Below are positions 20,900 to 29,164 of a stretch of DNA of 39,037 bases, piece after piece. This DNA is from Bacteroidales bacterium. GTDB lineage: Bacteria > Bacteroidota > Bacteroidia > Bacteroidales > UBA932. The position numbers were made by a program, and so were the translations under genes. Numbering within the stretch: position 1 is the first letter of the stretch; every line of letters begins with the position of its first letter. The notes under the pieces were generated by a model. That model made no database searches. It saw only the letters and a list, made by a program, of their open reading frames with translations, and had not been told where the DNA came from. The DNA lies in assembly GCA_017961015.1 (NCBI GenBank), contig JAGCYC010000026.1, positions 1 through 39,037 on the forward strand, written 5' to 3'.

Positions 20900-21991
20900 A
20901 TGCACCTGTTTCCGTCGTTAGAGAAAGTATATACCAAGGACAGGCTGAGCGCACGTGACGCCCAGCGTATGGCCGAATTCAGCGCCTTCGGTCCCATCGT
21001 GTTCCAGGCCAGCCGTCTTATGGTAAAATTCGGGATTCTGGAACGCCTCCGTGACAAGGAGATGACCGTGGAAGAAGTGGCCTCCGAGGCCGGTCTTTCC
21101 CTCTATGCAGCCAAAGTTCTTATGGAGGCGGGCCTTTCCGTAGGTACGGTGCTCATCAACCCCGAAACCGACCGCTATTCCCTGTCCAAGGTGGGCTGGT
21201 TCCTAATCAACGATCCTGCCACGCGGGTGAATATGGACTTCAACCACGACGTGAACTACGAGGGCTTCTTCCATCTGGAGGAGTCCCTGAAGGAGGGCCG
21301 CCCCGCCGGTCTGCCCCATTTCGGGAACTGGCCCACGCTCTATGAGGGCCTTTCCTCGCTGCCTGAGCAGGTGAAGAAGAGCTGGTTCGGTTTCGATCAT
21401 TTCTACTCCGACAATTCCTTCGACGAGGCCCTGCCGATAATCTTCTCGCAGGATGTCAGAAGGATTATGGATGTGGGAGGCAATACCGGACGCTTCGCCC
21501 AGCGCTGCGTAGCCTACGATCCTGAGGTGAAAGTGACCATAGTGGACCTTCCCCAGCAGCTGGAGATGATGCGCAAGGCCACGGAGGGAACGCCCGGTGC
21601 CGACCGTATCGAAGGCTATCCTATGAATATGCTGGACAGCAGCCTGGATTTCCCGGAAATCGGGGCCGATGTGATCTGGATGAGCCAGTTCCTGGACTGC
21701 TTCTCGGAGCCTCAGATCCTGAGCATCCTTACAAGGGCGGCCAAGGTTGCCGGTCCGTCAACAAGGCTTTGCATAATGGAGACTTTCTGGGACCGCCAGC
21801 GCTACGAACCCGCATCGTTCTGCCTCACTATGACCAGCCTGTATTTCACGGTGATGGCCAACGGCAATTCCAAGATGTACCATTCCGACGATATGGCCGC
21901 CCTGGTGCGCAAAGCCGGCTTCGAGGTGGATGAAATACACGACGGGCTTGGTCAGGGACACAGCATAATGGTTTGTAAATTAGCAAAATAG
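20900..21991 (+). CDS. SAM-dependent O-methyltransferase-like protein
   Basis: A 363-residue class I methyltransferase in the pattern of plant-type and polyketide O-methyltransferases. The N-terminal helical dimerisation/winged-helix part (about 25-105) reads FGILERLRDKEMTVEEVASEAGLS. The SAM-binding domain begins with motif I DVGGNTG (191-197), followed by IVDLPQQLEMM with the acidic ribose-binding residue. MSQFLDCFSEPQILSIL and RAAKVAGPSTRLCIMETFWDR follow the usual order. It opens the operon and ends eight bases before the first ACP gene. Methyltransferases occupy this place in many Bacteroidetes aryl-polyene clusters; the acceptor here is inferred only from that context. Confidence 0.88.
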   Translation: MHLFPSLEKVYTKDRLSARDAQRMAEFSAFGPIVFQASRLMVKFGILERLRDKEMTVEEVASEAGLSLYAAKVLMEAGLSVGTVLINPETDRYSLSKVGWFLINDPATRVNMDFNHDVNYEGFFHLEESLKEGRPAGLPHFGNWPTLYEGLSSLPEQVKKSWFGFDHFYSDNSFDEALPIIFSQDVRRIMDVGGNTGRFAQRCVAYDPEVKVTIVDLPQQLEMMRKATEGTPGADRIEGYPMNMLDSSLDFPEIGADVIWMSQFLDCFSEPQILSILTRAAKVAGPSTRLCIMETFWDRQRYEPASFCLTMTSLYFTVMANGNSKMYHSDDMAALVRKAGFEVDEIHDGLGQGHSIMVCKLAK

Positions 21992-21999
21992 TATAAGAT

Positions 22000-22242
22000 A
22001 TGACTTTGGAACAGATTCAGGAGAAGGTAAATGCCTTCCTTGTGGACGAATTGGAAATAGATGAGGAGAAAATCACCGACGGCGCACGTCTGAAGGAAGA
22101 CCTCGGGATAGATTCCCTGGAGGTCGTGGACGTGGTGGTGCTGGTGGACCAGGAGTTTGGCTTCAAGATGAAGCCGGAGGACTTCAAGGGTCTCCCTACC
22201 TATGGCGATTTCTGCCGTTTCATCGAATCCAGGCTTGGCTGA
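22000..22242 (+). CDS. Acyl carrier protein (first copy)
   Basis: An 80-residue carrier protein. The phosphopantetheine site is S39 in the motif GIDSLEVVD, preceded by ITDGARLKEDL. The four-helix spacing is normal. Because it lies between a methyltransferase and an acyltransferase gene in a polyene-like operon, it probably carries pathway intermediates rather than the main fatty acid chain. A second, distinct ACP is encoded at 25276 in the same operon. It overlaps the acyltransferase reading frame. Confidence 0.93.
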   Translation: MTLEQIQEKVNAFLVDELEIDEEKITDGARLKEDLGIDSLEVVDVVVLVDQEFGFKMKPEDFKGLPTYGDFCRFIESRLG

Positions 22243-23122
22243 GAAGTCAAATAGCAGGCTCTGGCGCGGAAGCACCGACGGGACGCCCTGGATGCACAGG
22301 GCGCTCATCGGCCTTTTCCGTTTCGTGCCCCTGAGGCTTATGTATGTGGTTATGGCCACCGCCATTCCCGTATATGTGGTGGTCGATTCCAGGGGACGCA
22401 GGGCTTCGTACAACTTCTTCCGCCACCGCATAGGCTACGGCCGCCTGCGCAGTGCCCTTCACGTGCTGAAGAATATGTACTGTATGGGACAGGTGGTTAT
22501 GGACCGCTTCGCCTCCTATGCCGGACGCTGCTTCGGTATGCAGGGACCGGGAATTGAACTCTACGACAAGCTCAGCCGCGGGGCCGAGGGTTTCCTGCTG
22601 TGCAGCTCGCACCTTGGAAACTTCGAGCTGGCCGGCTATCTCCTGAGGCCCAGAAAGCCGATGAAAGTGCTTGTCTATGAGGGAGAAACGGCTACGGTGA
22701 TGCAGAACCGGGCCCGGCTCTTCGGAGAGGGCAACGTGACTATGGTGCCGGTGAGGGAAGACCTTTCGCACATCTTCATCCTGAACAGCGCCCTCAGCGA
22801 CGGGGAGATTGTCTCCGTCCCTTCAGACAGGGTTTACGGATCGGCCAAAGTGGTGAAGGCAAGGTTCTTCGGCCAGGAGGCTTCCTTCCCTTCAGGCGCC
22901 TTTACGATGGCCCTTCAGAGGGGGGTGCCCGTGGTGAGCTGCTTCGTTATGAAGGTATCGGCCAGGGAGTACCGCGTGCTGATGGACCGCCTCCCCATTC
23001 CCGAAGAGGGAAGCCGGAACGACAGGCTTCAGGCCCTGGCACAGTCCTTTGCCGATTCGTTGGAAAAAGTGGCCAGGGAATACCCCGACCAGTGGTATAA
23101 TTTCTACGATTTCTGGGCGTGA
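22202..23122 (+). CDS. LpxL/HtrB-like lysophospholipid acyltransferase
   Basis: Membrane-associated acyltransferase of the lipid A secondary acyltransferase superfamily, up to 306 residues. The catalytic HX4E motif is SSHLGNFELAG (H137, E142). A hydrophobic segment at about 41-62 probably anchors it. The ATG at 22202 overlaps the ACP gene by 41 bases; a TTG at 22235, overlapping by eight bases and giving MAEKSNSRLWRGSTDGTPW, is a plausible alternative. In aryl-polyene clusters this enzyme is thought to attach the ACP-bound chain to a lipid acceptor; the same role is inferred here. Its stop overlaps the GTG start of the next gene. Confidence 0.87.
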   Translation: MAISAVSSNPGLAEKSNSRLWRGSTDGTPWMHRALIGLFRFVPLRLMYVVMATAIPVYVVVDSRGRRASYNFFRHRIGYGRLRSALHVLKNMYCMGQVVMDRFASYAGRCFGMQGPGIELYDKLSRGAEGFLLCSSHLGNFELAGYLLRPRKPMKVLVYEGETATVMQNRARLFGEGNVTMVPVREDLSHIFILNSALSDGEIVSVPSDRVYGSAKVVKARFFGQEASFPSGAFTMALQRGVPVVSCFVMKVSAREYRVLMDRLPIPEEGSRNDRLQALAQSFADSLEKVAREYPDQWYNFYDFWA

Positions 23123-23547
23123 CGGATCTTACTCATATAGATATGGGAACCATCCTGCTGCAACAGCGGCCTTTCCGCTTTGTGGATACGCTGGAAAGCT
23201 GGGATCCTAAGACCACCGTGACCGGATTCAGCATCGAACCCGACGTGCTCCTGCTGGAAAACGGGCTCCTTTCCGAGGCCGGGCTGCTGGAGCATATGGC
23301 TCAGTCCTGCGCCGCCCGCATCGGCTACGAGACGGTATATATTAAGCACGAGCCGGTGAAGATAGGCTTTATAGGCCAGGTGAAAGACTACAAGATAGCC
23401 AGGCTGCCCAGGGTGGGGGAAAGGCTCCGCACTACGGTGGAACTGGTTTCCGACGTGTTCGGAATAAGCCTCTGCGACGTGAGCGTACGCTCCGGAGATC
23501 AGTTCATAGCAAAGGCAAGCTTAAAGACGGCGATTAAGAGTGATTAA
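23119..23547 (+). CDS. Hotdog-fold 3-hydroxyacyl-ACP dehydratase-like protein
   Basis: A 142-residue FabZ/ApeP-type hotdog protein. The core helix GLLEHMAQSCAA (about 56-67) keeps the catalytic-site Glu, and IGFIGQVKDYKI and GERLRTTVELV follow in the family order. The position that is His in FabZ (PHRYPFLLVD) appears as Gln in LQQRPFRFVDTL. This form recurs in Bacteroidetes clusters, so it is probably a subfamily trait rather than decay, but whether it dehydrates or performs another thioester step is uncertain. The GTG start overlaps the acyltransferase stop by four bases, and the end overlaps the ketosynthase start by eight. Confidence 0.85.
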   Translation: MTDLTHIDMGTILLQQRPFRFVDTLESWDPKTTVTGFSIEPDVLLLENGLLSEAGLLEHMAQSCAARIGYETVYIKHEPVKIGFIGQVKDYKIARLPRVGERLRTTVELVSDVFGISLCDVSVRSGDQFIAKASLKTAIKSD

Positions 23548-24607
23548 GACAAATATCATAGGCTGCGGCGTGGTAACACCGCTTGGGAACACCCCCGGGG
23601 ACGTTTTTGGCGCCCTCCAGGCTGGCCGTACGGCGGTAAGGGAGCATCCTGCAGGGACGCTCGGCCTTAAGGAGCCCTTCTGCGCATCCCTTTTCGAGGG
23701 GCCCAGGGAGGATCTGTTCTGCCGCATAGCCGTGGAGGCGGGGGAGAAGGCCCTTGCCGAAGCCGGAGGCCTGACTCCCGGGACAGCCCTGGTGCTGTGT
23801 TCGGTGAAGGGTGAGATCGGCTCCCTCAGGGAAGGCGAGGATGTGTCGCTGGCGGCAGCGGCCCGAAAAATAGCGGAAAGGCTTGGAATCCAGGGGATGC
23901 CGGTGGTGGTGTCGGATGCCTGTATTTCGGGGCTTTCCGGCATAGTACAGGCCCGGCGTATGCTTCTGGCCGGGCTCTGGGACAGGGTGCTGGTGATAGG
24001 CGCCGAGGTCCAGTCCCGCTTCATCGTGGCCGGATTCAACTCGCTCAAAGCCCTTTCGGAGCAGCCCTGCAGGCCCTTCGACGCCTCCCGTTCCGGCCTT
24101 AATCCCGGCGAGGCGGCAGCCGCCCTGGTGCTTTCCCTCGAGGACAGCCCCTGGGAAGTGGTGCACGGGGCCATCCGTAACGATGCAAACCACATTTCCG
24201 GTCCTTCGAGGACGGCCGAGGGCTCGTTCAACGCCCTCTCGGCAGTGCTTCCCTATATGCAGGGGCGGCCGGCTTTTGTGGGCGTACACGGTACCGGAAC
24301 CCTTTACAACGACCAGATGGAGGCCATCGCTCTGGAGCGTGCAGGCCTCCTGGATATCCCTGTGAGTGCCCTGAAAGGCTATTTCGGCCATACGATGGGA
24401 GCTGCGGGAATACTTGAGACCATAATCGGGATGCAGTCCCTTCTGCAGGGACGGATCCCTGGCAACCGCGGCTTCGCCAAGGCAGGCACCGAGCCTTCGG
24501 TGAATATATCGGCCCAGGCGATGGAGTGCAGCGGAAACGAATTCCTGAAACTGCTGTCGGGTTTCGGCGGCATCAACGGAGCCCTGCTCATAAGACACTG
24601 CGTATGA
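23540..24607 (+). CDS. Beta-ketoacyl-ACP synthase (first copy)
   Basis: Condensing enzyme of 355 residues, FabF-like. The catalytic triad is complete: Cys128 in SDACISGLSG, His250 in VHGTGTLYND and His284 in LKGYFGHTMGAAG, with K279 in the same motif. The C-terminal GFGGINGALLI is the usual glycine-rich loop. It is shorter than FabF (about 410) because several surface loops are reduced, giving a compact form. The start is a GTG that overlaps the preceding gene. The pair with the second ketosynthase at 25537 suggests separate roles in chain extension. Confidence 0.9.
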   Translation: MIKTNIIGCGVVTPLGNTPGDVFGALQAGRTAVREHPAGTLGLKEPFCASLFEGPREDLFCRIAVEAGEKALAEAGGLTPGTALVLCSVKGEIGSLREGEDVSLAAAARKIAERLGIQGMPVVVSDACISGLSGIVQARRMLLAGLWDRVLVIGAEVQSRFIVAGFNSLKALSEQPCRPFDASRSGLNPGEAAAALVLSLEDSPWEVVHGAIRNDANHISGPSRTAEGSFNALSAVLPYMQGRPAFVGVHGTGTLYNDQMEAIALERAGLLDIPVSALKGYFGHTMGAAGILETIIGMQSLLQGRIPGNRGFAKAGTEPSVNISAQAMECSGNEFLKLLSGFGGINGALLIRHCV

Positions 24608-25263
24608 AGACGGTAGCTATAGAAAAGGGAACTTCGCTTACGGAACTGTACCGTAGCCTTGGGGGCGATTACCCCAAGTTCTTCAAGATGGACATCCAGT
24701 GCAAGCTTGGCTATCTGCTGGTAGAAAAGCTGCTGCAGGATGCTCCGGACCGTTTCGTGCCCCGTAAGGACGTGGCCGTACTGGTGTTCAGCCGCAGCGG
24801 TTCCCTTGCCGATGACAAGGCCTTCGCCGCAACCCTGGACACTTTCCCTTCGCCCGCCCACTTCGTATATACCCTTCCCAACACGGTTTGCGGCGAGATT
24901 GCCATAAGGAACCGTTTTATGGGTGAGACCCGTTCCTACGTGCTGGACAGCTTCGACCCTGAAATCCTCGGTGAGCTGGTGCTTGAAGCCTTCCTTGACG
25001 AGGAAAGCTCCAGCGTCATCGCCATCTGGGCCGATGCCCCCTCGGAAGAGGAATGGGAGGCCCGCGCCTGGCTGTTCACGGCTCAGGACCTGATGCCCGC
25101 CCACCACTGCTGCCATCACGGCGAGGGAGGCTGCCATCACGGCGAAGGCCACCACGAGGGCGGCTGCTGCCACGGGGAAGGGCACGGCGAGGGCAGCTGC
25201 TGCCACGGTGAAGGGCACGGCGAGGGACAGCACGAAGGCTGCTGCCATCACAAAGGAGAATAA
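24604..25263 (+). CDS. Truncated ketosynthase-like protein with His/Cys/Gly-rich tail
   Basis: A 219-residue protein in two parts. Residues 1-165 resemble the N-terminal part of a ketosynthase chain-length-factor domain (PF13723-like): SPAHFVYTLPNTVCGEIAI (83-101) and the region around it match the same segment of the gene at 26684, but there is no active-site Cys-His-His triad. Residues 167-219 are a low-complexity tail with 15 His, 9 Cys, 17 Gly and 9 Glu among 53 residues, built of units such as CCHGEGHGEG. This composition suggests metal binding, for example of Zn, Ni or Cu. The reading frame is uninterrupted, with ATGA overlap upstream and 12 bases to the ACP gene downstream. Its function is unknown; an inactive partner of the adjacent ketosynthases is the working idea. 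Confidence 0.82.
   Translation: MKTVAIEKGTSLTELYRSLGGDYPKFFKMDIQCKLGYLLVEKLLQDAPDRFVPRKDVAVLVFSRSGSLADDKAFAATLDTFPSPAHFVYTLPNTVCGEIAIRNRFMGETRSYVLDSFDPEILGELVLEAFLDEESSSVIAIWADAPSEEEWEARAWLFTAQDLMPAHHCCHHGEGGCHHGEGHHEGGCCHGEGHGEGSCCHGEGHGEGQHEGCCHHKGE
25162..25227 (+). repeat. Two tandem 33-bp units in the His/Cys tail
   Basis: Units 25162-25194 and 25195-25227 differ at only a few bases and encode [GS]CCHGEGHGEG twice. Less regular HHGEGGC-type copies run from 25102 to about 25260. Slippage or unequal recombination here would change the tail length in steps of 11 residues without a frameshift. Confidence 0.85.
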
Positions 25264-25275
25264 AGTACATACAAT

Positions 25276-25536
25276 ATGGAAGAACTTATCAAAGAACTGA
25301 AAATCAAACTCATTGAGTCCCTGAATCTGGAAGAGATGACCCCTGAGGACATCGATGTGAACGCTCCCCTTTTCGGGGACGAGGGCCTGGGCCTTGATTC
25401 CATCGACGTGCTGGAACTGATAGTCCTGCTCGAAAAAGACTACGGTATCCGCCTCGCCAACCCGGCAGAGGGAAAGGCCGTCTTTGCCAGCATTGCCGTG
25501 ATGGCCGATTACGTAGCAAAGCACCGTACAAAGTAA
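25276..25536 (+). CDS. Acyl carrier protein (second copy)
   Basis: An 86-residue carrier protein. The attachment serine is S42 in LGLDSIDVLEL, preceded by FGDEG. The DSID and LGLDS forms resemble ACPs of aryl-polyene and other secondary pathways more than the housekeeping AcpP. It differs clearly from the first ACP of the operon (GIDSLEVVD), so the two may serve different steps. Its stop codon is directly followed by the GTG of the second ketosynthase. Confidence 0.92.
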   Translation: MEELIKELKIKLIESLNLEEMTPEDIDVNAPLFGDEGLGLDSIDVLELIVLLEKDYGIRLANPAEGKAVFASIAVMADYVAKHRTK

Positions 25537-26691
25537 GTGGAGCGCAGGATAGTCATAACGGGAAGCGGCGTGGTAAGCGCCCTCGGACTGGGGAAGGCAG
25601 CGAATGAGAAAGCCTTTGCCCAGGGACTCCGTGCCATTGCTCCCGTGCGCTACCTGAAGACTTCCCTGCTGGATTTCCCGGTAGGGGAGGTGCCTGCATC
25701 GGACGATGAGCTGATGCGCCTCTGCGGCGTTTCCGAGCGCATCCCGAGGGGCAGCCTCCTGTCTGTCCTGGCCCTTCGCGAGGCCCTTTCCGAGGCCGGT
25801 TTTGCCGATGGGGCAGGTATGCCCCTCATCAGCGGCACCACCGTCGGAGGTATGGACCTGAGCGAAGCCTCTTTCCCGGAATTCTCTTCCCTTCACGACT
25901 GCGGTGCGTCCACCGATGCCGCCGCGGATGTGGTAGGAGGCTTCGGCTACCGTACGACGCTTTCCACCGCCTGTTCATCGGCCGCCAACGCCCTGGCCTT
26001 CGGCGCAAGGCTTATACGCAGCGGCCTGGTGAAAAGGGTAGTGGCAGGAGGAGCCGAAAGCCTTTCCGACTATCATCTGCACGGCTTTGCCTCCCTGATG
26101 ATCCTGGACCGCGAACCCTGCCGTCCCTTCGACCTTGGCCGCGCCGGCCTGAACCTTGGCGAAGCCGCCGCCTTCCTTGTCCTGGAAAGCGAGGAAGCGG
26201 CCCTGGAGCGCGGTGTAAAGCCCCTTGCCCTGCTTGAAGGCTGGGGAAATGCCTGCGACGCCTATCACCAGACGGCCTCGTCGGAAAACGGCGAAGGCGC
26301 ATATCTGAGTATGCTCAAGGCCCTTGAATCGGCCGGCCTGAAGAGTTCGGACATAGATTATGTGAATGCCCACGGTACGGGAACGCCCAATAACGATGCC
26401 TCCGAAAGCGCCGCTCTCAGGCGCGTGTTCGGCGAGGTTCTGCCCCCGGTAAGTTCCACCAAGGCGCTCAGCGGGCATACTACCAGCGCTTCCGGCTCCC
26501 TGGAAGCCGTGTTCTGTATGATTGCCCTCAAGGAAGGTCTTATTCCCGCCCAGCAGGGCCTTTCCACTCCTGATCCGGCTTGCATCCTGCCGGTAACGGA
26601 AAGCCTTCACAGGCCTCTGAGGCATATCCTTTGCAATTCCTTCGGCTTCGGAGGAAACGATACTTCCCTCATAATAGGCCGATATGAATAA
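25537..26691 (+). CDS. Beta-ketoacyl-ACP synthase (second copy)
   Basis: A 384-residue FabF-like condensing enzyme with a complete active site: Cys146 in LSTACSSAAN, His279 in NAHGTGTPNND, and His314 with K309 in STKALSGHTTSASG. GFGGNDTSLI near the C-terminus is the usual loop. The GTG start directly follows the ACP stop. It is probably the main elongating ketosynthase, with the protein at 26684 in the place where a chain-length factor is usually encoded. It overlaps the next gene by eight bases. Confidence 0.92.
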   Translation: MERRIVITGSGVVSALGLGKAANEKAFAQGLRAIAPVRYLKTSLLDFPVGEVPASDDELMRLCGVSERIPRGSLLSVLALREALSEAGFADGAGMPLISGTTVGGMDLSEASFPEFSSLHDCGASTDAAADVVGGFGYRTTLSTACSSAANALAFGARLIRSGLVKRVVAGGAESLSDYHLHGFASLMILDREPCRPFDLGRAGLNLGEAAAFLVLESEEAALERGVKPLALLEGWGNACDAYHQTASSENGEGAYLSMLKALESAGLKSSDIDYVNAHGTGTPNNDASESAALRRVFGEVLPPVSSTKALSGHTTSASGSLEAVFCMIALKEGLIPAQQGLSTPDPACILPVTESLHRPLRHILCNSFGFGGNDTSLIIGRYE

Positions 26692-27235
26692 GCCGGTGTA
26701 CATACTCTCCCGCGTACAGCTGGGCCCCGAAGACCCGGACTTCCGCAGCGTGCTTACGCCTATGGAGGCCCGTCGTCTGGGACGTCTTCTCAAACGTGCG
26801 GTATGGACTTCCAGGACAGCCCTGGAACAGGCCGGAGTAAGCTGCCCCGATGCAGTGATTACCGCCACCGACTTCGGCGCCCTGAGCCAGTCCGAGGCCT
26901 TTCTGGAGGCCCTCAAGGACCCTGAAGGCTCGCCCAGGCCTACCCATTTTATGCAGTCCACCCACAATACGATAAGTTCGCTTATAGCTATGAACCTTCA
27001 CTGTCACGGCTATAACGCCACCTATTCCCACAGGGGGACTTCGCTTCAAAGTGCCCTTGCCGATGCCTGGATGCTCATCCAGGAAGGACAGGCCTCGACC
27101 GTGCTGGTGGGACAGTTCGACGAACCCTCGCGCTATAATCTGGAATCGGCCGATATCGCCCTTTCCCTGGTCCTTTCAGACCGGGGAGGCGAGGGTGCCG
27201 AGCTTCTGAAAAATCCTTTGGAGGAGCTGCTATGA
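26684..27235 (+). CDS. Ketosynthase-like protein lacking the catalytic residues (possible chain-length factor)
   Basis: A 183-residue protein resembling the N-terminal ketosynthase domain (PF13723-like) only. The segment RPTHFMQSTHNTISSLIAM (85-103) and the following HCHGYNATYSHRG mirror the region before the active-site nucleophile, but no Cys occupies that place and the C-terminal half with both histidines is absent. It is therefore unlikely to condense on its own. A parallel segment in the protein at 24604 suggests they are paralogues or form a pair. A role in chain-length control or in stabilising the adjacent ketosynthase is inferred from gene order. Confidence 0.8.
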   Translation: MNKPVYILSRVQLGPEDPDFRSVLTPMEARRLGRLLKRAVWTSRTALEQAGVSCPDAVITATDFGALSQSEAFLEALKDPEGSPRPTHFMQSTHNTISSLIAMNLHCHGYNATYSHRGTSLQSALADAWMLIQEGQASTVLVGQFDEPSRYNLESADIALSLVLSDRGGEGAELLKNPLEELL

Positions 27236-27591
27236 TTTGGAAAATTCTGCCTCTGGCGCTGCTTCAAAGCGCTTTTCTCTGTGCCACCCAGGTACTTCTG
27301 AAATTTGCCAGCCGTAGCATTTCGGCCTTTCAGTGGAAGTGGGCCTGGTGGCGCGACTGCCTGCTTACCAACTGGTGGCTGTTGGGAACAGGAGCCGCCG
27401 GACTGGTGGCTATGGTGCTGTGGGTGTATATCCTCAAGCATTTCCCTTTCGGAATAGCCTATCCCCTGAGCTGCCTGAGCTATGTCTTCGGCCTGCTGGC
27501 AGCTGCCTTTATCTTTAAGGAAAACGTTGCCTGGACCCAGTGGCTGGGCGTTTTCCTGGTTATGAGCGGTTGTATCCTGATTGCCCGATGA
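27232..27591 (+). CDS. Small EamA/SMR-type membrane transporter
   Basis: A 119-residue inner-membrane protein with four hydrophobic segments: about 4-22, 47-67, 71-92 and 98-117. The PFGIAYPLSCLSYVFGLLAA and FKENVAWTQWLGVFLVMSG stretches belong to the EamA/small multidrug resistance superfamily, in the size class of ArnE/ArnF half-flippases, which usually work as dimers. In this operon it may flip a lipid-linked intermediate or its glycosyl donor. The ATG overlaps the preceding stop, and its own stop overlaps the next ATG. Confidence 0.85.
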   Translation: MIWKILPLALLQSAFLCATQVLLKFASRSISAFQWKWAWWRDCLLTNWWLLGTGAAGLVAMVLWVYILKHFPFGIAYPLSCLSYVFGLLAAAFIFKENVAWTQWLGVFLVMSGCILIAR

Positions 27592-28112
27592 CACGACGCC
27601 CGAGCATATTCCTCTGCCTGCTTCTGAGCCTTCTGCCCCTTGCGGCCGCGGCCCAGGACAGCGGGCTGCTGGAAAGGATAGTAAGGGCCAACAGCCCTTC
27701 ATCGGCCCGGGCCGATTTTATCCAGCGCAGGCATTCTCCTCTGCTGGAGGGCGAACTCCTGAGCGAGGGCAGGCTGTACCTGCTTTCTCCCGACAAGCTG
27801 CGCTATGAGCAGACAAAGCCCGTTCAGAAGCTCAGCATCCTGGACGGAAGCGCTGCAAGAGGCCGTTTCCGTGTTCCTTCCTTCGACGATTTCGAGATAA
27901 GCCTGCTGCAGGACGGGAAGAAGCTCTCCCTGGTGATGGATCCCCGGCGCAGGGACCTCAGGCAGCTGTTTACGCGCGTGGTGCTGGAAGTGGATCCCTC
28001 AAGCCTGCTGGTTCAGAAGGTCCTTCTGCTGGGGCTTGACGGCAATTCCACTTTGCTGGAATTCAAGAATTTGCAGCTGGACGTACAGCTGGACGAATCT
28101 TTGTTTGAATGA
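27588..28112 (+). CDS. LolA-like outer membrane lipoprotein carrier
   Basis: Periplasmic protein of 174 residues with a signal peptide (MTRRPSIFLCLLLSLLPLAA, cleavage expected near residue 22). The mature part resembles LolA: repeated beta strands and the RYEQTKPVQKLSILDGS segment, typical of half-barrel lipid carriers. LolA-like proteins are regular members of aryl-polyene clusters, where they are believed to carry the product across the periplasm. The ATG at 27588 overlaps the stop of the transporter gene; an upstream ATG at 27540 would bury the signal peptide and is rejected. Confidence 0.88.
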   Translation: MTRRPSIFLCLLLSLLPLAAAAQDSGLLERIVRANSPSSARADFIQRRHSPLLEGELLSEGRLYLLSPDKLRYEQTKPVQKLSILDGSAARGRFRVPSFDDFEISLLQDGKKLSLVMDPRRRDLRQLFTRVVLEVDPSSLLVQKVLLLGLDGNSTLLEFKNLQLDVQLDESLFE

Positions 28113-29164
28113 TGCTGGAAGGTCTGTTATATACCGTCGGATCCCGTGAAAAAGGGACGGCAAGCCTGAGGCTTCTTCCCGGAAGTCCCGTTTATGCCGC
28201 CCATTTCCCGGACTATCCCATCACTCCCGGCGTCTGCCTTGTGGAAATAGCCAGGGAACTGATGGAAAAGGAGCTGGGCAGGCCGCTTTATCTGTCGGCC
28301 ATCCGTAAACTCAAGTTCCTTAAGCCGGTATTTCCCGGTGAAGAAGGGACGGAACTCAGCGTCGAGTTCTCGGAAAACGGTGCTTCCTTCTTCCTGGAGG
28401 GCAATTGCTGTGCAAGTTTTGAATGGTCCTTCCGTCCTGCAGATACCCTGGTGGTAATCCCCACCTACAACAATGAAGGGACTCTTGCCGATGTAATAGC
28501 GCGTGTAAGGGCCCAGGGACTGCCCATCTGCGTGGTGGATGACGGCAGCACAGACTCCACCGCCAGTATCCTCAAGGGAGAAAAGGACGTGAGGGTACTA
28601 AGGCACAGTGTAAACCAGGGCAAGGGCGCTGCGCTCAAGACGGCCTTCAAGGCAGCCCGTGACTGGGGCTTCGACTATGTCCTTAGCCTTGATGCCGACG
28701 GTCAGCATTTCCCCGAGGATATACCGGGAATACTGGACAGCAGGGGTCCGGGAAAGCTCATTGTGGGCAGCCGCAATATCAATGCCGATGGAATGGCCGT
28801 GTCCAGCAGCTTTGCGAACCGCTTCTCCAATTTCTGGTTTATGCTGTACACGCTTAATAAACTGAGCGATACCCAGACCGGTTTCAGACTGTACAGCCTG
28901 AGGGACCTGCCGTCGCTGAGCCTGGTGACATCACGTTACGAGGCCGAGCTTGCCCTCCTGGTGCTGAGCGCCTGGAAGGGTGTAAAACTGGAAAGCGTTC
29001 CAGTGAAGGTTGTCTATCCGGAAAACCGGGTATCACATTTCCACCCGGTGAAAGACTTTGCGAGGATTTCCCTCCTGAACACCGTCCTCCTTCCCATAAC
29101 CCTGCTTTACGGCTATCCCAGGATGCTACTGGGCAGGCTGTTCGGCAGGCGAAGGGCGGACTGA
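28109..29164 (+). CDS. Hotdog dehydratase domain fused to family 2 glycosyltransferase
   Basis: A 351-residue two-domain protein. Residues 1-110 form an ApeI/FabZ-like hotdog domain with the catalytic-type His in AAHFPDYPITPG (H32) and Glu in CLVEIA (E46). Residues from about 113 form a dolichyl-phosphate-mannose-synthase-like GT-A domain: VVIPTYNNEGT (115-125), DDGSTDST (144-151), the DxD motif in LDADGQH (194-200) and DTQTGFRLYS. The fused pairing suggests that the acyl chain and a sugar-phosphate step are processed together. It is the last gene of the operon and overlaps the convergent phosphodiesterase gene by 39 bases. The sugar and acceptor are unknown. Confidence 0.88.
   Translation: MMLEGLLYTVGSREKGTASLRLLPGSPVYAAHFPDYPITPGVCLVEIARELMEKELGRPLYLSAIRKLKFLKPVFPGEEGTELSVEFSENGASFFLEGNCCASFEWSFRPADTLVVIPTYNNEGTLADVIARVRAQGLPICVVDDGSTDSTASILKGEKDVRVLRHSVNQGKGAALKTAFKAARDWGFDYVLSLDADGQHFPEDIPGILDSRGPGKLIVGSRNINADGMAVSSSFANRFSNFWFMLYTLNKLSDTQTGFRLYSLRDLPSLSLVTSRYEAELALLVLSAWKGVKLESVPVKVVYPENRVSHFHPVKDFARISLLNTVLLPITLLYGYPRMLLGRLFGRRRAD

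Follow-up and report, generated by a model that had tools for sequence, protein, structure and literature searches.

Why does a small protein from a polyketide gene cluster end in a dense run of histidine and cysteine, and what might such an ending do there? The protein is encoded in a 39,037-nucleotide stretch of Bacteroidales DNA (hereafter the window). We asked whether its tail is real, what it is attached to, where else it occurs, whether selection acts on it, and which known proteins it resembles.

A histidine- and cysteine-rich tail

The open reading frame at 24604-25263 (plus strand) encodes a 219-amino-acid protein, and its ATG and the stop codon of the ketosynthase gene upstream (23540-24607) lie in a 4-nt overlap. 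The last 53 residues (167-219; 25102-25263 including the stop) form a SlyD-like tail of 15 His, 9 Cys, 17 Gly and 9 Glu, and translation confirmed the His and Cys counts given in a first-pass annotation of the locus. His and Cys together make up 3.3% of the 18 other window proteins (5738 amino acids); with that background, the binomial probability of at least 24 such residues in 53 is 7e-22. Among 306 stop-to-stop frames of at least 60 amino acids on both strands, the runner-up 50-residue stretch holds 14 His and Cys, versus 24 here. The tail contains a 33-bp tandem repeat of 3.3 copies (25117-25226), and it is predicted to be disordered, with a pLDDT of about 46-49 from residue 171 on.

A frame artefact or read-through is ruled out by the tail's two alternative frames, which contain no His or Cys and one of which has stops in every copy of the repeat. 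It is also ruled out by the 48 synonymous versus 5 nonsynonymous differences in the first 165 codons between two other tailed genomes (G284 and G285), and by the position of the downstream acyl carrier protein (ACP) gene. Of 20 tail-less relatives, 17 have the ACP start -20 to 23 nt from the stop of the gene studied here, and no such start was found close by in the other three (the script used for this gap mis-picked the ACP methionine in the tailed G284 and G285). Because the ACP follows so closely in the tail-less relatives, we regard the tail as an insertion.

The folded part resembles a half-size chain-length factor

Residues 1-166 (24604-25101, plus strand) behave as a half-size, ApeC-like chain-length factor (CLF), the partner of the ketosynthase encoded just upstream (KS1). 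The first-pass annotation had described a ketosynthase-like fragment without a catalytic triad. The triad is indeed absent, and in alignments of 30 and 70 relatives none of the domain's invariant or nearly invariant positions is a Cys or His; the term fragment does not hold, since the structure prediction shows what seems to be an entire domain with a single thiolase fold, roughly half as large as a ketosynthase, and not a broken one. The predicted structure matches the ApeC fold, with 16-17% identity in structural alignments. ApeC itself, known from the ApeO-ApeC structure PDB 6QSP and from an A. baumannii structure (PMC8358021), is a half-size protein with a single thiolase fold according to the accessible part of the latter report. 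Like ApeC, the domain is half ketosynthase size, its gene adjoins that of a ketosynthase, and no catalytic triad is expected; that part of the report mentions no His/Cys tail on ApeC.

Natural fusions help build the case for a ketosynthase partner. The CLF is fused behind a ketosynthase, in one open frame with ketosynthase motifs, in 20 of 80 named relatives. A model of one such fusion (pTM 0.89) has the PfaC KS-CLF didomain 6riw as its top match, with a TMq of 0.67 as opposed to about 0.5 for single ketosynthase chains among the matches listed. The single-chain KS-CLF proteins come from Prevotella-related and other Bacteroidales genomes (fusion loci L147, L149, L168-L172, L177, L180, L183, L187-L191 and L195-L197), and 17 were aligned.

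Sequence profiles gave less. The tailed protein has no Pfam match, and 2 of 30 relatives of the domain match PF00109 weakly; we therefore say that the domain works like ApeC, not that it is a proven member of a family. An hhalign comparison of the CLF family with ketosynthases found nothing (probability 0.1), and a first scan of genome contigs gave no relatives. In a profile search of the PDB, the domain matched a designed protein at 4e-5, owing to repeated fragments, and the ketosynthase chain 6kxd_B at E 1.1. The domain also weakly matches AmcG of cispentacin biosynthesis (NCBIfam NF058659), likewise a short family (157 positions), with 14.4 bits where the cut-off is 80; AmcF, the companion of AmcG, is matched by KS1, and we infer that AmcG is a ketosynthase-like partner. 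In all, the assignment draws on structure prediction, fusions and gene position, and both the single thiolase fold and a KS-CLF-like docking are predicted.

An aryl-polyene/flexirubin-like gene cluster

The tailed gene lies within a block of plus-strand genes that begins with an FlxJ-family methyltransferase (20900-21991; NF053543, 584 bits, cut-off 560), placed first in the block by synteny. An ACP (22000-22242), an LpxL-like acyltransferase (22202-23122) and a FabZ-like dehydratase (23119-23547; weak, E 0.008) follow. Next comes KS1 (23540-24607; PF00109/PF02801, motif DACISG), the likely partner of the tailed protein, in which C128, H250 and H284 are nearly invariant in an alignment with KS1 as its first row (A4). 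Another ACP (25276-25536; PF00550, with NF006617 over cut-off) starts 12 nt past the tail's stop. It is followed by a second ketosynthase, KS2 (25537-26691; PF00109/PF02801), and by a second ketosynthase-like fragment that has no such tail (Ketoacyl-synt_2, 26684-27235; PF13723, 3.8e-12, over cut-off). With KS2 followed by this short protein, the operon may encode two KS-CLF pairs. An EamA-type membrane protein, a LolA-like protein and a dehydratase-glycosyltransferase fusion occupy 27232-29164.

This gene order is common to the window, G284, G285, the tail-less G291 and the two contigs of G361 combined. In the tail-less G381 it matches from the first ACP through the dehydratase, with no methyltransferase match in the 860 nt before the first ACP and no match for the glycosyltransferase part. 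The methyltransferase is over its cut-off and both ketosynthase and ACP genes are present; the dehydratase match is weak, and the LolA-like protein scores 68.7 bits to LolA2_flexi, below the cut-off of 125. No aryl starter genes (ammonia-lyase, ligase) were found among the window proteins scanned. The cluster would be aryl-polyene/flexirubin-like, and the earlier view of a polyene-type operon that includes a condensing-enzyme partner is supported.

The tail is confined to one small clade

Among the relatives examined, the tail occurs in four genomes: that of the window (G000), G361, G285 and G284. They belong to a small set of Bacteroidales whose nearest named relatives are from the rumen. The four tailed sequences group together as one clade (support 99/87) in a tree built from 49 domains, where the window sequence has a long branch (0.65). 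The domain itself has matches in 61 of 149 genomes at the family level, 99 of 300 at the genus level (including tail-only matches on SlyD) and 107 of 393 at the order level. The first-pass annotation raised the idea of a tail conserved at this locus, which fails for the wider family: the tail was present in 0 of 29 relatives examined at the family level, at 3 of 29 loci at the genus level (G361, G285 and G284; 26 without), and at 1 of 80 loci on named contigs. The last, Tb.RUG.329, is of the same species as one of the three genus-level tailed genomes, and its first 165 CLF codons are identical to those of the second G361 copy. Another draw of 400 genus genomes, which overlapped the first (127 matching), gave no additional tailed genome, and no further tail was seen by match range among the order-level matches listed; match range was the sole basis for judging the remaining genomes.

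Outside the four genomes, domain matches that extended past residue 167 ran through stop codons (G345, G410, G278 and G139), and the G797 locus, when examined, had no such tail. Two weak tail matches (L034 and L035) were attributed to chance. Searches with the tail alone miss diverged tails, as one failed to recover that of G361, and their weak matches had E values of 0.04-1. The tail matched no PDB sequence, and the publications listed showed nothing about such a tail on a ketosynthase or CLF. G361 has two variants of the tailed gene, at the ends of contigs C156 and C185 (L074 and L075), which differ by 20 synonymous and 3 nonsynonymous codons in the first 165; these probably come from two strains, the repetitive tail having interrupted the assembly.

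Selection on the tail

Tail length, which the first-pass annotation proposed to compare among strains, varies from 39 to 58 amino acids by in-frame indels, while the His+Cys fraction stays at 0.45-0.50 in the four genomes (0.012-0.024 in the domains), and does so across about 60% domain identity. Between the G284 and G285 tails, pS is 0.765 and pN is 0.050. The His/Cys sites of this pair comprise 14 identical, 5 synonymous and 0 nonsynonymous codons (P = 0.004). The corresponding counts are 11, 11 and 2 for G361b-G285 (P = 0.0002), 11, 6 and 4 for G361a-G284 (P = 0.08), and 28, 0 and 0 between the two G361 variants; the P values assume a null that allows transitions only, the pairs compared share history, and the repeats make the tail alignment generous. 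Substitutions in the tail are thus mostly purifying, and selection appears to keep the tail in place.

Could the tail nonetheless be low-complexity sequence that has no role with metals and persists only because it aids solubility or expression? Its variable length, its predicted disorder and its absence from the other relatives examined all fit that idea. However, the constant His+Cys fraction and the mostly purifying substitutions, clear at the His/Cys sites of two pairs and weaker in G361a-G284, make a neutral extension unlikely, and we give this explanation poor odds. A role in metal-dependent regulation or assembly, in which bound metal or disulfides would tie KS-CLF complexes together or control how the ACP gains access, seems similarly improbable. 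The tail does sit where 6 of 80 named relatives fuse the CLF to the downstream ACP (L128, L129, L133, L136, L138 and L151, all Bacteroidales), and metal-bridged polyhistidine assemblies are known from what is accessible of one source (PMC10382482), but variable tail length and spacing argue against a precise geometry. Judged from the sequences compared, the tail is a real feature, clade-restricted and under selection.

Resemblance to SlyD tails and to another host

Most of the similar sequences examined in the genus are tails of the metallochaperone SlyD. In a first set, 10 of 10 similar stretches sit on SlyD; a SlyD-tail query matched 39 of 400 genus genomes, with SlyD as the host in 31 (27 of 30 loci in one batch and 4 of 9 in another) and 8 chance matches. 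Both kinds of protein end in a His/Cys/Gly/Glu tail of variable length with CCHGEG-type units, and with some SlyDs of the same genus the likeness extends to the start and end motifs. In G361 and G285, the CLF tail starts with VPPEEEHHCCHG or LPPAEGHHCCHG and ends in HCHCKENK; some SlyD tails start with LPPEEHHCCHG, LPLEEEHHCCHG or LPLEEGHHCCHG, and some end in HCHDKE or HCKDKE. The hosts differ: SlyD is an FKBP-type prolyl isomerase, and here the tail is on a polyketide-synthase subunit with a predicted thiolase-like fold and no Pfam match to an FKBP-type domain. Klebsiella UreE and mycobacterial GroEL1 are comparable in carrying a His-rich metal-binding C-terminus on another core fold, going by the excerpts available; UreE is a nickel chaperone whose tail, as quoted there, has His without Cys, and the GroEL1 host is a chaperonin.

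How much of this likeness reflects ancestry? For four of five CLF tails (three of four genomes), the local score to SlyD was reached by none of 500 residue shuffles and none of 500 unit shuffles, while for the G284 tail it was reached by 5 and 20 of 500, respectively. No other CLF tail scores as high to SlyD repeats as that of the window (232), which lacks the PPEE junction and has a weak junction score (57 of 2000). Reversed versus real tails scored 167 and 232 (G000), 153 and 171 plus 157 and 175 (G361), 128 and 165 (G285), and 95 and 112 (G284). Reversal lowers the G361 scores little, and composition and repeat therefore account for part of the likeness to SlyD. CLF and SlyD tails share codons only as often as usage would lead one to expect, and a recent transfer of DNA from SlyD is therefore not supported; this test has little power, because homologous CLF tails hardly exceed the usage expectation either.

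We also found that such stretches are not limited to SlyD and CLF. A 264-amino-acid CBM9-like protein in G466 (L266, 1302-2093, minus strand; PF16011, 1e-46) contains the His/Cys loop RHHCCCHHEEEEGGEHHCCHHHDENEGGEHHCCGGGR, with units HHCC, CCHHHD and EGGEHHCC; none of the other stretches comes as close to the G284 and G285 tails. The tails score 183 to this loop versus 112 to the best SlyD tail in G284, and 167 versus 165 in G285; no shuffle reached the loop score for the G361, G284 and G285 tails, whereas 206 of 1000 did for G000. The CLF tail is C-terminal, whereas the G466 loop lies inside a protein of a carbohydrate-binding family; sequences of this sort therefore appear on further hosts, whether by arising there or by being acquired.

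The tail may have been captured from SlyD, may be a module that several hosts share, or may have arisen by convergence. Under convergence, the tail would have grown on the CLF by repeat expansion, with selection for metal binding favouring the same CCH, HHCC and GEG units. The 33-bp repeats, the G466 loop, the high scores of reversed tails and the codon identities are in keeping with this, P/E-rich linkers are common, and SlyD was undetected by its domain query in 22 of 22 genomes tested from the surrounding clade (4 tailed and 18 not; 70-97% complete). Set against it are the junction, order and C-terminal end that four of five tails have in common with SlyD beyond shuffles, and the tail-less relatives, most of which have no spacer from which a tail could be read through. 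We put convergence at somewhat below an even chance, an estimate that the G466 loop raised slightly.

SlyD and nickel

Does the tail stand in for SlyD? SlyD was detected in 10 of 10 other genomes, two of which (G260 and G336) were chosen because their SlyD was already known. A general replacement of SlyD by the tail is weakened by the 18 tail-less sisters in which SlyD was likewise undetected. A more specific version, in which the tail replaces the SlyD nickel store that serves HypA/HypB in [NiFe]-hydrogenase maturation, finds some encouragement in the tailed genomes, all four of which have HypB over cut-off and no detected SlyD. In the window genome, HypB lacks a His-rich stretch and is encoded close to a HypA-like ORF. 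In addition, the SlyD tail is reported to be essential for hydrogenase maturation in the accessible part of one source (PMC7055735). However, 17 of 18 tail-less sisters without SlyD also have HypB over cut-off, and HypB occurs in just 3 of 10 SlyD-bearing genomes, so SlyD and HypB are not paired in this genus. With HypB in 21 of 22 SlyD-less and 3 of 10 SlyD-bearing genomes, simple nickel-hydrogenase replacement is not supported, and we consider it a long shot. Across the 32 genomes, SlyD and HypB are nearly mutually exclusive, possibly reflecting one evolutionary event. On contig C37 of the window genome (L222, 4815-8671), HypB, a 941-aa ORF and the HypA-like ORF stand in a row; the 941-aa ORF resembles an iron-sulfur/NAD(P)-type oxidoreductase, both it and the HypA-like ORF being named by eye.

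A metal buffer on a polyketide synthase?

The reading that best accommodates these observations, with a probability of roughly 65%, is a SlyD-type metal-buffering tail on the KS-CLF complex of an aryl-polyene/flexirubin-like type II polyketide synthase; the tailed sample behind it comprises four genomes, two of them close. The CLF (24604-25263) would dock on the ketosynthase encoded just upstream, and a tail of 39-58 amino acids would have been added at its C-terminus, directly before the ACP gene, in one clade. By analogy with SlyD, the tail likely binds metal: it would be a flexible multi-site ligand, each chain holding several soft or borderline divalent ions of the Ni/Zn/Cu class at modest affinity. 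In the text available of PMC7055735, the unstructured tail of SlyD is reported to allow binding of as many as 7 Ni by the E. coli protein and of 2.4 Ni or 3.3 Zn, with micromolar affinity, by that of H. pylori. The early suggestion of a metal-type tail on a condensing-enzyme partner gains support, in that SlyD tails of this type are known to bind metal. The tailed KS-CLF complex would then act as a metal buffer, and the tail may shield nearby thiols (the ketosynthase cysteine and the ACP phosphopantetheine) from such metals. Because the gene is small, this main claim is directly testable.

A bolder and rather unlikely proposal is that within this Bacteroidales genus a His/Cys module has been passed between, or repeatedly grafted onto, unrelated proteins: SlyD, the CLF in a clade where SlyD was undetected, and the CBM9-like protein. 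On the CLF, the module would let the KS-CLF complex buffer cytosolic metal or respond to metal as an enzyme. A disordered tail rich in His and Cys is commonly taken to identify a protein that handles metal. In the present case, selection appears to maintain such a tail on a subunit of a polyketide synthase, and the metallochaperone that normally carries it was not found in these bacteria. If the tail binds metal, it would link secondary-metabolite synthesis with metal buffering, and it would offer a compact case for asking whether modules of this kind move between unrelated proteins.
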